Below, one piece after another: positions 21,848 to 26,060 of a stretch of DNA of 64,000 nt. The notes beneath the pieces were generated by a model, which ran no database searches, was not told where the DNA came from, and was given only the letters and a program-made list of their open reading frames with translations. The position numbers were made by a program, and so were the translations under genes. Source of the stretch: Desulfosporosinus acididurans (lineage in GTDB: Bacteria; Bacillota; Desulfitobacteriia; Desulfitobacteriales; Desulfitobacteriaceae). Position 1 is the first letter of the stretch; each line of letters starts with the position of its first letter. The stretch is from assembly GCF_001029285.1 (NCBI RefSeq), contig NZ_LDZY01000010.1, positions 62,001 through 126,000 on the forward strand, written 5' to 3'.

Positions 21848-23428
21848 CTATAGCAAAATCTTCTGTTCGCAAAAATCCCCTGTTAAAGGAAGTTCAGCAA
21901 TACGATCAACGAAACCCTCACCAAACAGCGTAACAAAGTACAAAGGATTTAGGATCCGCTCCTGTCTCCCTTTATTAGGCGTAATCCCATCCTCAAGCAC
22001 CCTCAAACCCTCGAGAACCGCACCATATTTCTTACGCTGAGCTTGCCAGAGTTTTTTCCTTAAGTATTCAATTTGGAGATTAACTTTCATTTCGTTCCGA
22101 ATTATCCAATCATGAACATTAGCATGAATGTCCTCAAGGGGACCCAATTCTTTATAGCCTTTTTCGATAACAGACCTCAACTGCTGTATACGATGCTCAA
22201 TATCCAGAGAATCCCGATCGCGAATACAACGTTCTTTGTAACCATCTAACCCCTGATAAACATCAGCCAGCGTCAATCCTTCTTTGCTAAGCGATTTCTG
22301 CCAGGAAGGTGTCACGATAACTGCCGACAACCGGGGAAATAAGATGGGCATAATAAACCCAAAGGATAGAAACACTTCTCCCAGCTGAGCCCAATAATTC
22401 AATTCCCCAGGACCGGGAACATAGGCTAAGGTGGGGAATAAAAATTCCTGAACAATTGGTCGAGTCACAACGTTGGGAGAGAACATTCCAGGATTTTTCC
22501 TTAACAACATAGGCAAAACGTCATTATCCAAGATTTTGTCTTGGCCCCTTAAATAATAACTGTGACCCTGATTTAAAATTGCCCGGCGTTCTGGATTGGC
22601 CAGGAATAAGTTCACTTCGCCTCCCAGGGGCTGAATCTGGGCTGAAAAACCAAGTTTTGTCCAAGCCTCAGTTCGCCGGAACAGAGCCTCCCGAACACTA
22701 CTATGTAGTTTAAGGATTTGTTCATACATTGGAGCCGCCAAACGTTTGAATTCCGGCAGCAAAGGATCAAACAAGATCAGGCCCCATTTTTTGAGCAGCC
22801 ACTGTAAAGTTAAGGCAAACCATTGGGCGAGATTTTCTGCTTGATTAAGGAAACGCCGGCAATGCTGGAGAACTAAGTCTCTAAATTCGCCATCAGGCAG
22901 CTGCAAAAGTTGCAGCTCAATAGCTTCCCAGGAGGGAACAGGCAGAATTCCCACTGATTTTCCTTCTTCTCCGTCACCCGGGAGACTGCAGGGAAAAGGC
23001 TTCCCTTTATAATTTAGAAAGAAGGTTTTATGTATTTCTATCCAGTCATGATCCTCACTGGCAATCCAAAACACCGGTACTACAGGCCGCCCAAGCCTTT
23101 TCCGTTGTTCCTCGGCAAGGCGAATAATCGTCATCGCCTTATATAAGGTATACAAAGGTCCGGTCAAAATACCTGCTTGTTGGCCGGTAATAACGACCAG
23201 GGTTTCATTACGCCTCAGCTCGTCAATCATTTGCAGCGTTTCCTTGTTTGCCCCTAAGAAGCGGTGATAGGCTTTTAATGTATCAACAAGTTCTTCTCTT
23301 GGATAATTCCTGGAATCCAGATACCTTGCTCGCCGCTCAAAACTTTCTTGAAGCCGCGGATTGCCGCTGGGAAAAAAAAAAGCTACTTGTTCAAAACAAG
23401 TAGCCAAGGCTTGCATCGGATCTCTCAT
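21848..23428 (-). CDS. bshC: Bacillithiol biosynthesis cysteine-adding enzyme BshC
   Basis: A 526-residue protein with BshC signatures: VVITGQQAGILTGPLYTLYKAMT near residue 80, PVFWIASEDHDWIEI near 120, and a C-terminal coiled-coil with LRVLEDGITPNKGRQERILNPLYF. BshC adds cysteine to glucosaminyl-malate in the last step of bacillithiol synthesis. bshA is about 13 kb away at 8,002-9,168. The selD gene ends 41 bases upstream, so selA, selD and bshC may form one transcript. This would link selenium and low-molecular-weight thiol metabolism, which is an inference from position only. Confidence 0.92.
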   Translation of the reverse strand: MRDPMQALATCFEQVAFFFPSGNPRLQESFERRARYLDSRNYPREELVDTLKAYHRFLGANKETLQMIDELRRNETLVVITGQQAGILTGPLYTLYKAMTIIRLAEEQRKRLGRPVVPVFWIASEDHDWIEIHKTFFLNYKGKPFPCSLPGDGEEGKSVGILPVPSWEAIELQLLQLPDGEFRDLVLQHCRRFLNQAENLAQWFALTLQWLLKKWGLILFDPLLPEFKRLAAPMYEQILKLHSSVREALFRRTEAWTKLGFSAQIQPLGGEVNLFLANPERRAILNQGHSYYLRGQDKILDNDVLPMLLRKNPGMFSPNVVTRPIVQEFLFPTLAYVPGPGELNYWAQLGEVFLSFGFIMPILFPRLSAVIVTPSWQKSLSKEGLTLADVYQGLDGYKERCIRDRDSLDIEHRIQQLRSVIEKGYKELGPLEDIHANVHDWIIRNEMKVNLQIEYLRKKLWQAQRKKYGAVLEGLRVLEDGITPNKGRQERILNPLYFVTLFGEGFVDRIAELPLTGDFCEQKILL

Positions 23429-23469: not shown

Positions 23470-24543
23470 TCATGGGTGCAGGGAAATCGCAATTTTTCCG
23501 GGCTGACCGGCGCAGACTCGTCCGATCACTGCGGCTGCCGGCGTTTGAGCAATAGTCAGCTGTTTTAACAAAGGTTCCAGATGATCTTGGGAAACTGCAA
23601 TAAGAAGTCCGCCTGAAGTTATGGCATCACAGAGCACAACCTGCAATTCCTCGGGTACATCTGAAGCAAACTCTATCCAACCTTCCAGGTGGCGCTGATT
23701 AGCTCTTGTCCCTCCGGGAATCGCCTGTTGCTCAATACATTGCCAAACACTCTCTAAAACCGGGACATCACCAGCATATACTTCAGCACTTGAGCCGCTT
23801 GCCGAAAGCATCTCATGTAAATGTCCCAACAACCCGAAACCTGTTATATCCGTAACCGCGTGAACACCTGCTTCAACTGCAGCTTCAGCAGCTCCCTTGT
23901 TCAAAGCTGCCATGACCTGAATAACTTCTTGTTCTGCCTTGGCTGAAACAATACCACGCTTTATTCCTGTCGTAATAATTCCTACACCGAGAGGTTTCGT
24001 AAGAACTAAGTAATCTCCATCCTCAGCTTTAGCATTGGAAAGAACGTTATCTGGATGAACAACTCCGGTAACGGAAAGTCCATATTTCGGCTCAGAATCA
24101 TCAATAGAATGTCCTCCGACCAAAACCGCCCCCGACTCCCGGATTTTATCACTTCCGCCCTGAAGAATTTGGGCTAATACTTCCATTTTTAATTTACTAA
24201 TAGGAAACGAGACTAAGTTCATCGCCGTCAAGGGTTTGGCCCCCATGGCGTAAATGTCACTTAAAGCATTGGCCGCAGCGATTTGACCAAAAGCATAGGG
24301 ATCATCTACCACGGGAGTAAAGAAATCGACGCTCTGTACAAGAGCCTGTTCATCGTTAATTCGATATACTCCAGCATCATCAGAAGTATCCAGACCTACA
24401 ATCAAATTAGCATCTTCTTGATTTGGAGGTAAGCAGCACAAAACTTGTGCCAGGTCCCCAGGACCTATCTTGCATCCTCAGCCTGCTTTTGTTGAGAACT
24501 GGGTCAAGCGGATTTTATCTTGACTATTGAGACCAAGTTCCAT
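23470..24543 (-). CDS. selD: Selenide, water dikinase SelD with selenocysteine at residue 22 (TGA codon)
   Basis: The true gene starts at ATG 24,541-24,543 (MELGLNSQDKIRLTQF) and reads through an in-frame TGA at 24,478-24,480. This gives AG-U-GCKIGPGDL, the known SelD active site in which selenocysteine replaces cysteine. The full product is 357 residues. The rest is a standard AIR-synthase-type fold with VGLDTSDDAGVYRI, QSVDFFTPVVDDPYAFG and LVGGHSIDDSEPKYG. SelD makes selenophosphate from selenide and ATP. A conventional caller starts at the in-frame TTG at 24,441 and loses the active site. A GGTGGTGA site precedes the ATG. selA lies upstream. Confidence 0.95.
24440..24480 (-). promoter_or_regulatory. 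Putative bacterial SECIS element of selD
   Basis: Twelve bases after the TGA, GGTCC and GGACC pair around a TGG loop (24,453-24,465), and CACAA..TTGTG can pair just downstream. This is the place and the kind of G-containing loop where SelB binds in bacterial selenoprotein mRNAs. A fold calculation was not possible here. Confidence 0.6.
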
Positions 24544-24647
24544 TCTAGTCACCACCAAAATTTAATATACGTTATGGCTATACATCACGTTGTAATTATC
24601 ATTATAGCTAGATTACTCTCAACGTCAACCTAACGCAGAGTGAACTC

Positions 24648-26060
24648 CTATTTCCAATCATTGATGCGTTGAGCTATATCCTCAATGTCTCCGTCGAGCA
24701 AAGTTCGTACATCGAAAAGTATCCAATCCTTCTGAATGCGGGTTAAAATCGCTGCTGGGCCCAAACGGAGGAACTTTTCCAGTTCGTTAACACTTCCTTG
24801 CTTGGGACGGACAGAGCAAACCCATGTCGGCAGATTCACTGTGGGCCATGCCCCGCCTCCTACTTGCGATACATCCTCTCTAATTTCAACGGAAATAGTC
24901 TTACTCGGTTCCAAAACAGTTTTCAGTTCCTCTGCCTTGGCTTTCAACTCCTGGGAAGAATACGAGAGCATTCTCCAGACAGGAATTTCCCCGCCCTCTC
25001 CATTTAAGTACATACGGAGTGTTCCTTCTAAGGCGGCTAATGTCAACTTATCAATTCTGAGAGCTCTCGTCAATTGATTCGTTTTCAGGCGATCAATAAA
25101 ACAACGTTTGCCGACGATAATCCCGGCCTGCGGACCACCTAACAATTTATCACCGCTGAACGTGACCAGATCCAGTCCAGCCTTTACCGTTTGCTGAACC
25201 GTTGGTTCAGGAGGAAAACCCAAACTTATCCCATCAAAAAAGCTCCCACTCCCTAAATCCTCCATGACAGGAATACCCCGTTTTTCTCCAAGCTCCACTA
25301 ACTCTGCTCCAGCAACGGCATGAGTAAAGCCTTCCAGGCGATAATTACTGGTGTGAACCTTCAAGAGAAGTGCTGTTTCCGTGGAAATCGCATCTTCATA
25401 ATCTCTGTACCAGGTCTTATTCGTGCTTCCAACCTCAACAAGTTTCGCCCCTCCGGCTTTTAAAACTTCAGGTATTCGAAAGGACCCTCCGACTTCAACT
25501 AATTCGCCGCGGGAAACAACGACTTCTTTGCCCAAGGCAAACGTATTCATCATCAGCAGTACAGCCGCAGCATTATTATTGACTACCATAGCCGCTTCTG
25601 CACCGGAAAGTTCACACAGGAGCTGCTCAACAAGAGTATAGCGTGAGCCCCGTTCTCCGGTCTCAATATTCAATTCCAGATTACTATAGTGTTCAGCTTG
25701 AGCAGCCACGAAGCGGGCGATTTCCGGTGCAAGAAGTGCCCGGCCGCAATTTGTATGTAAGACAACGCCAGTGGCATTAATCACGCGGCGCAAATTTGTT
25801 TCAGGATTGGCTAAGGCTTGATACAGTTCGTCTATCAGCCACGGCCATAACTCCGCTTCAACATCCTCACCCCAATCCGATGTATTACTGTAGACATTTT
25901 CGCGCGCTTTTTGTAAAAGCTGTCGAACGCAATGTTTTATCCGGGGCAAGCTTCTCTTATTCGTCAAGAAGGGACCGAATTCCGCCTCTGCTTCCAGACG
26001 AGCCAGCACTTCATGAACTGCTGGAAGTGCTCTTAAACGCCGTTGTTTATCTTCCTCCAT
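24648..26060 (-). CDS. selA: L-seryl-tRNA(Sec) selenium transferase SelA
   Basis: A 470-residue PLP enzyme of the SelA family. It has RRVINATGVVLHTNCGRALL at about 91-110, ETGERGSRYTLVEQLLCELSG, and the PLP lysine in FSGDKLLGGPQAG (Lys305). It converts seryl-tRNA(Sec) to selenocysteyl-tRNA(Sec) with selenophosphate from SelD, whose gene follows after about 105 bases. SelB and the selC tRNA were looked for near these genes and not seen, so they must be elsewhere. An AAGGAG site precedes the ATG. Confidence 0.95.
   Translation of the reverse strand: MEEDKQRRLRALPAVHEVLARLEAEAEFGPFLTNKRSLPRIKHCVRQLLQKARENVYSNTSDWGEDVEAELWPWLIDELYQALANPETNLRRVINATGVVLHTNCGRALLAPEIARFVAAQAEHYSNLELNIETGERGSRYTLVEQLLCELSGAEAAMVVNNNAAAVLLMMNTFALGKEVVVSRGELVEVGGSFRIPEVLKAGGAKLVEVGSTNKTWYRDYEDAISTETALLLKVHTSNYRLEGFTHAVAGAELVELGEKRGIPVMEDLGSGSFFDGISLGFPPEPTVQQTVKAGLDLVTFSGDKLLGGPQAGIIVGKRCFIDRLKTNQLTRALRIDKLTLAALEGTLRMYLNGEGGEIPVWRMLSYSSQELKAKAEELKTVLEPSKTISVEIREDVSQVGGGAWPTVNLPTWVCSVRPKQGSVNELEKFLRLGPAAILTRIQKDWILFDVRTLLDGDIEDIAQRINDWK

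Follow-up and report, generated by a model that had tools for sequence, protein, structure and literature searches.

A predicted selenoprotein selD of Desulfosporosinus acididurans and a candidate two-hairpin recoding signal downstream of its UGA codon

Selenophosphate synthetases (SelD) that themselves contain selenocysteine (Sec) have long been described and are counted among the commonest selenoprotein families in the literature (PMC1794560, PMC4561486, PMC13188914), and the need of such an enzyme for its own product has long been recognised as well (PMC1794560). In the bacterial SECIS (bSECIS) model, as set out in PMC13188914, there is one stem-loop, whose apical loop lies 16-37 nt after the UGA and carries a G in its first two positions. 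According to a 2025 paper, the bacterial SECIS model misses some selenoproteins (PMC12013277). Photobacterium profundum has two selD genes, the Sec form next to selAB and the Cys form next to ybbB (PMC1273633). The window analysed here, the whole stretch of 64,000 nucleotides of D. acididurans DNA, holds a Sec-SelD gene that is itself mostly ordinary; it is the tandem hairpin after its UGA that would be worth a specialist's attention.

The selD gene and its selenocysteine codon

The minus-strand frame at 24543-23470 of the window is predicted to encode SelD (selenide, water dikinase; selenophosphate synthetase), a protein of 357 aa whose residue 22 is selenocysteine. It reads MELGLNSQDKIRLTQFSTKAG-U-GCKIGPGDLAQVL..., in which U is the TGA at 24480-24478, and its natural stop is also a TGA (23472-23470). 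The read-through protein matches the NCBIfam selD model TIGR00476 at 410 bits (4.5e-123, cut-off 125) and PRK00943 at 374 (cut-off 299), and the AIRS-type domains PF00586 and PF02769 are both found in it. In an alignment to E. coli SelD (PDB 3U0O, AGCGCKI), U22 falls on Cys17; within the catalytic loop AGUGCKIGPGDL, the motif AGUGCKIGP corresponds to AGCGCKISP of the E. coli enzyme, and the family pattern of a catalytic Cys or Sec, then G/A-C/A-K-[IL], is kept together with its invariant Lys. An ORF lister that stops at TGA begins the selD frame at the TTG at 24441-24439 (minus strand), inside the 3' arm of the second hairpin described below, and yields 323 aa; because it begins there, the catalytic loop is missing, and it is chiefly for annotation, where naive gene calls drop this loop, that a Sec-type selD matters here. 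The sequence-only reading of this DNA had already placed an in-frame TGA, followed by GCKIGPGDL, at 24,478-24,480 and had predicted the loss of the loop from calls starting at TTG 24,441; translation and the ORF list agree with it, and its coordinates were all right.

Directly upstream lies selA (L-seryl-tRNA(Sec) selenium transferase, 24648-26060, minus strand; TIGR00474, 6.4e-170). The 104 bases between selA and selD contain a promoter-like TTGACG-N16-TATAAT on the same strand (24601-24628, 11/12 consensus matches), and a similar TTGACG ... TATAA was seen by eye in many of 22 aligned upstream regions from Desulfosporosinus. Directly after selD comes bshC (bacillithiol synthesis, 21848-23428), and a bshC match also occurs within 27/63 selD loci of the AQV type, the group defined below. 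A search with Rfam at gathering thresholds gave zero matches across the window.

Across 129 distinct SelD loci, found with a pattern that permitted several residues at the active-site codon, this codon is TGA in 88, Cys in 41 and anything else in none. Because U and C are the only residues found there, a chance origin of the TGA is ruled out, and the earlier claim that the active-site residue of SelD is selenocysteine is borne out by alignment to SelDs of both kinds. Upstream of the TGA the frame (..RLTQ.S.KAG), whose conservation that reading required, is kept through the genus and beyond, and in the closest public genome, Desulfosporosinus sp. FKB, a 97% identical SelD keeps the TGA. None of the window's other in-frame TGAs resembled a selenocysteine site on inspection, the other top scorers being ordinary gene ends.

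The host genome (4.64 Mb) contains selA, selB and selC together with the TGA-type selD. The genes for SelB (631 aa, C3:270314-272185) and for tRNA-Sec with a TCA anticodon (C3:269176-269269) lie on a contig other than that of selD and selA. The other two uses of selenophosphate are likewise encoded, one by a 2-selenouridine synthase and the labile-selenium cofactor trait by the pair YqeB/YqeC. Of 83 genomes of the class, 53 have a TGA-type SelD whose frame is intact apart from this codon. As tallied by hand from tables, selB is over the cut-off in 52 of these 53 and selC is present in 52, and none lacks both, a combination in relatives that would have spoken against selenocysteine in the sequence-only reading. 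The exceptions are drafts, G019 without selB (85% complete, selC present) and G049 without selC (86% complete), and G019 is the only one of 19 genomes without selB to have a TGA-type SelD. Eight genomes of the class have selB and SelD matches that are all non-TGA, and therefore a SelD without Sec can serve the Sec trait.

The notion that the TGA is a true stop, due to a pseudogene or a sequencing error, with one of the remaining SelDs doing the work, is scarcely credible: the two other SelDs of the genome could make the loss of this one tolerable, but the intact TGA-type frames of the 53 genomes are matched by selB and selC, hairpins are maintained after the TGA, and the 97% identical Desulfosporosinus sequence retains the codon. 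On these comparisons selD is almost certainly a selenoprotein gene in which UGA is read as Sec22, a reading that appears secure short of experiment and is of a kind already known.

Paired segments after the UGA

The sequence-only reading had offered a GGTCC/GGACC hairpin as a candidate SECIS. This hairpin starts exactly 12 nt after the TGA and, with one outer pair added, forms H1 (A-GGTCC-TGG-GGACC-T, 24452-24466, minus strand), but it is half of the structure, as directly 3' of it lies a second hairpin that had been missed, H2 (GGCACAA-GTT-TTGTGCT, 24435-24451, minus strand; core arms 24450-24445 and 24441-24436, GCACAA-GTT-TTGTGC). When folded, the window segment gives H1 and H2 side by side.

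Because the GPGDL codons partly force GGTCC/GGACC, synonymous codons were resampled with each gene's own codon usage, and the idea that the hairpin is a mere by-product of these codons was thereby rejected. Against this codon-preserving null, H1 reaches a Z of 19.7 in 63 Sec-SelDs (the AQV group, defined by the protein motif AQV), 8.7 in the LysR-linked clade and -0.8 in 41 Cys-SelDs, and H2 reaches 18.1 in the 63 and has no signal in the Cys-SelDs, values that overstate independence since the sequences are related. Within the AQV group, Watson-Crick pairs amount to 4.43/5 in H1 (2.32 expected) and 5.56/6 in H2 (3.49 expected); in the 41 Cys-SelDs the pairing of both hairpins is at expectation. 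With any register allowed, the H1 zone holds a stem of at least 4 bp in 98% of the 63 (null 15%) and in 27% of the Cys-SelDs (null 14%), and the H2 zone a stem of at least 5 bp in 94% (null 7%) and 2% (null 3%), respectively. Run without guidance, RNAalifold gave H2 as the consensus of the AQV group and H1 as that of the SPGSG group, and it returned no structure for the Cys-SelDs.

Neither H1 nor H2 is found at these positions in 14 other Sec-SelDs, several of them planctomycete. A single hairpin ACCTG..CAGGT, possible in some relatives, was considered as an alternative and set aside; it competes for the H1 bases, its pairing in the window is incomplete by eye, and it is weakly supported in the 14 other Sec-SelDs (Z 2.2). 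Nine loci, mostly planctomycete Sec-SelDs (L050, L053, L057-L059, L063, L064, L069 and L086), seemingly form another single hairpin and thus a third layout, exemplified by GGACCTG-GGA-CAGGTCC in L058.

Covariation is stronger in H2. At alignment columns 33/43, where the wobble base of an Ala codon faces base 1 of the codon four places downstream, the pair is GC in 29 sequences, AU in 20, CG in 4, UA in 3, GU in 3 and other in 1, all four Watson-Crick pairs thus occurring at a synonymous Ala position. In terms of codons, GCA is accompanied by TGC/TGT (Cys), GCG by CGC/CGT (Arg), GCC by GGC/GGT (Gly) and GCT by AGC/AGT (Ser), with exceptions in 4/63. The covariation count gave 61 double-change cells against 20 when shuffled, and paired cells drop from 93% to at most 47% upon sliding. 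On a SelD tree built without the hairpin segment, supported branches provide 4-5 independent contrasts at this pair, too few for formal significance, with means of 3.7/4 and 4.7/5 agreeing and 0.0 opposing; the outer pair of H1 has zero supporting independent contrasts on this tree. In H1 it is mostly the sequence that is conserved, and the best evidence for it as a structure comes from six sequences that have lost the central U-A pair of GGTCC/GGACC, five of which keep a 5-bp hairpin in a register shifted by a one-base slip (AGCC/GGCT or GGGCC/GGCCC).

Assignment of the SelB site

In the window, the H1 loop (TGG, at 17 nt) and the H2 loop (GTT, at 33 nt) both fall within 16-37 nt of the UGA and have the G. 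It could be held that the UGA is read through with H1 as the only SECIS and H2 as an incidental palindrome. The 17 nt between H1 and the UGA lie within the published range (PMC13188914), and in the SPGSG clade H1 occurs alone, with a loop that starts with G in 11/11. This explanation is nevertheless unlikely, given that H2 has a codon-preserving Z of 18 of its own, that one of its pairs occurs in all four Watson-Crick types, that the RNAalifold consensus for the AQV group is H2 and not H1, and that G stands in the first two positions of the H1 loop in 33/63 of this group, the rule being broken in the remaining 30/63. The stronger covariation of H2 and the broken loop rule also mark the earlier candidate SECIS, GGTCC/GGACC, as real but incomplete. 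The H2 loop begins with GT in 63/63, partly by construction, as the Val of the AQV motif forces GT, and in many relatives the tip of H2 is CAGGTN(C)TG. This tip resembles the SelB site of E. coli fdhF (GCAGGUCUGC); the resemblance is a lead and not a test.

With moderate confidence, H2 would be the likelier SelB site in the AQV-type clade and H1 a compact spacer. SelB with Sec-tRNA would bind the tandem hairpin at the ribosome, most likely through H2, upon which UGA would be read as Sec22, and this residue would then act in selenide activation. The compact H1 stem between UGA and H2 may shorten the effective distance as a spacer, or may cause the ribosome to pause. For selD2, the paralogue linked to LysR, a lone H1 with a GGN loop probably suffices as the putative SECIS.

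The hairpins might also serve another purpose, for example as an mRNA switch by which SelB or selenium status tunes selD expression. The two stems here exceed the single stem that makes up the SECIS of E. coli fdhF. The level of selB expression is controlled in some bacteria, according to PMC13188914. Such an additional role is nonetheless improbable, as the hairpins are confined to TGA-type SelDs and lie at SECIS distance, Cys-type SelDs being almost without signal.

A more far-reaching reading, to which we give a probability of about 0.55, is that the Sec-SelD mRNAs of a large group of bacteria (Bacillota, Geotalea and others) are recoded by means of two hairpins, a spacer H1 and a SelB-binding H2, both under selection. 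The RNA would dictate the synonymous Ala codon and, in part, the residue four codons on (Cys, Arg, Gly or Ser), and with a one-hairpin paralogue in the same cell, one enzyme would be served by two recoding signals. If functional, the tandem hairpins would widen the bacterial SECIS model and provide a clear case of mRNA structure constraining enzyme sequence. No relevant paper on tandem bacterial SECIS hairpins was found in the open literature without supplementary figures, which is weak evidence of novelty.

Three SelD copies and comparison with known systems

The host genome encodes three SelDs, two Sec forms that differ in their hairpin layout and a single Cys form. The TGA-type selD2 (C7:190785-191810), whose product is 50% identical to the window SelD, has GGTCC-GGC-GGACC without H2, and a divergent LysR gene adjoins selD in all 11 members of its clade. 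The Cys-type selD3 (C13:16666-17667; 44% identical to the window SelD) has as neighbours yedF, a Se/S-carrier (DUF3343) gene and a gene for a cysteine desulfurase similar to SclA (Sec-lyase-like). Genomes with three SelDs are rare but not unique, G002 (contamination estimate 6%) having three TGA-types of different clades (C11 and C33).

Because making SelD needs selenophosphate, the window copy depends on pre-existing SelD activity, and a feedback on selenium supply through Sec-SelD, also proposed in the sequence-only reading, is plausible. The Cys-type SelD may supply the selenophosphate for making Sec-SelD, and because a Cys-SelD in the same genome could bypass it, a strict autocatalytic loop would not be required. 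Three SelDs beside three uses of selenophosphate (Sec, 2-selenouridine and the labile-Se cofactor) form a natural system for asking whether the copies are product-dedicated.

Two small candidate selenoproteins lie beside selD2 (G000:C7:191885-192142, equal to L002:2601-2861, and G000:C7:194133-194351), beginning MVIIKVYSNSPAGLRUSRLL... and MVTIKVFSNRPSGKTUTRLI... G007 has an orthologue (79%) and G372 a distant one (46%), with one TGA each, so that a TGA occurs in 4/4 copies found; the first candidate has zero Pfam or NCBIfam matches. Just downstream of the first lies a decayed-looking third copy with a TAA within its frame (L002:2905-3174). A frame of 463 codons, two of them TGA (L020:15634-17020, G000:C7), matches NCBIfam MbdU (metal-binding double selenoprotein, NF045648). 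Together with selD2, the LysR gene and the small ORFs, this MbdU-like frame makes up an island of selenium genes, next to which lie two serine-recombinase-like genes.

The window protein resembles the bacterial Sec-SelDs described in PMC1794560 and PMC4561486 without any difference, with Sec at a single catalytic position in an N-terminal loop, Cys homologues, and selA, selB and selC co-occurring. The bacterial SECIS of PMC4561486 is a simple stem-loop, whereas the window selD has tandem hairpins, a layout not mentioned in the accessible part of that paper. With the bSECIS model of PMC13188914 the locus shares apical loops at 17 and 33 nt from the UGA, each with a G in the first two positions; that model has one stem-loop, whereas conservation here extends to two stems side by side, and the G of the H1 loop is often absent in relatives. 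The LysR beside selD2 and the yedF and DUF3343 genes beside selD3 recall the LysR_Se, YedF and DUF3343 neighbourhoods of PMC5322559; unlike LysR_Se, the selD2 regulator stays under the cut-off of its closest NCBIfam model, LysR_Sec_metab (194 vs 250 bits). As in Photobacterium profundum (PMC1273633), Sec and Cys SelDs occur in one genome, but here there are three, a Sec form with selA, a Sec form with a LysR_Se-like regulator, and a Cys form with yedF, DUF3343 and a Sec-lyase-like gene.
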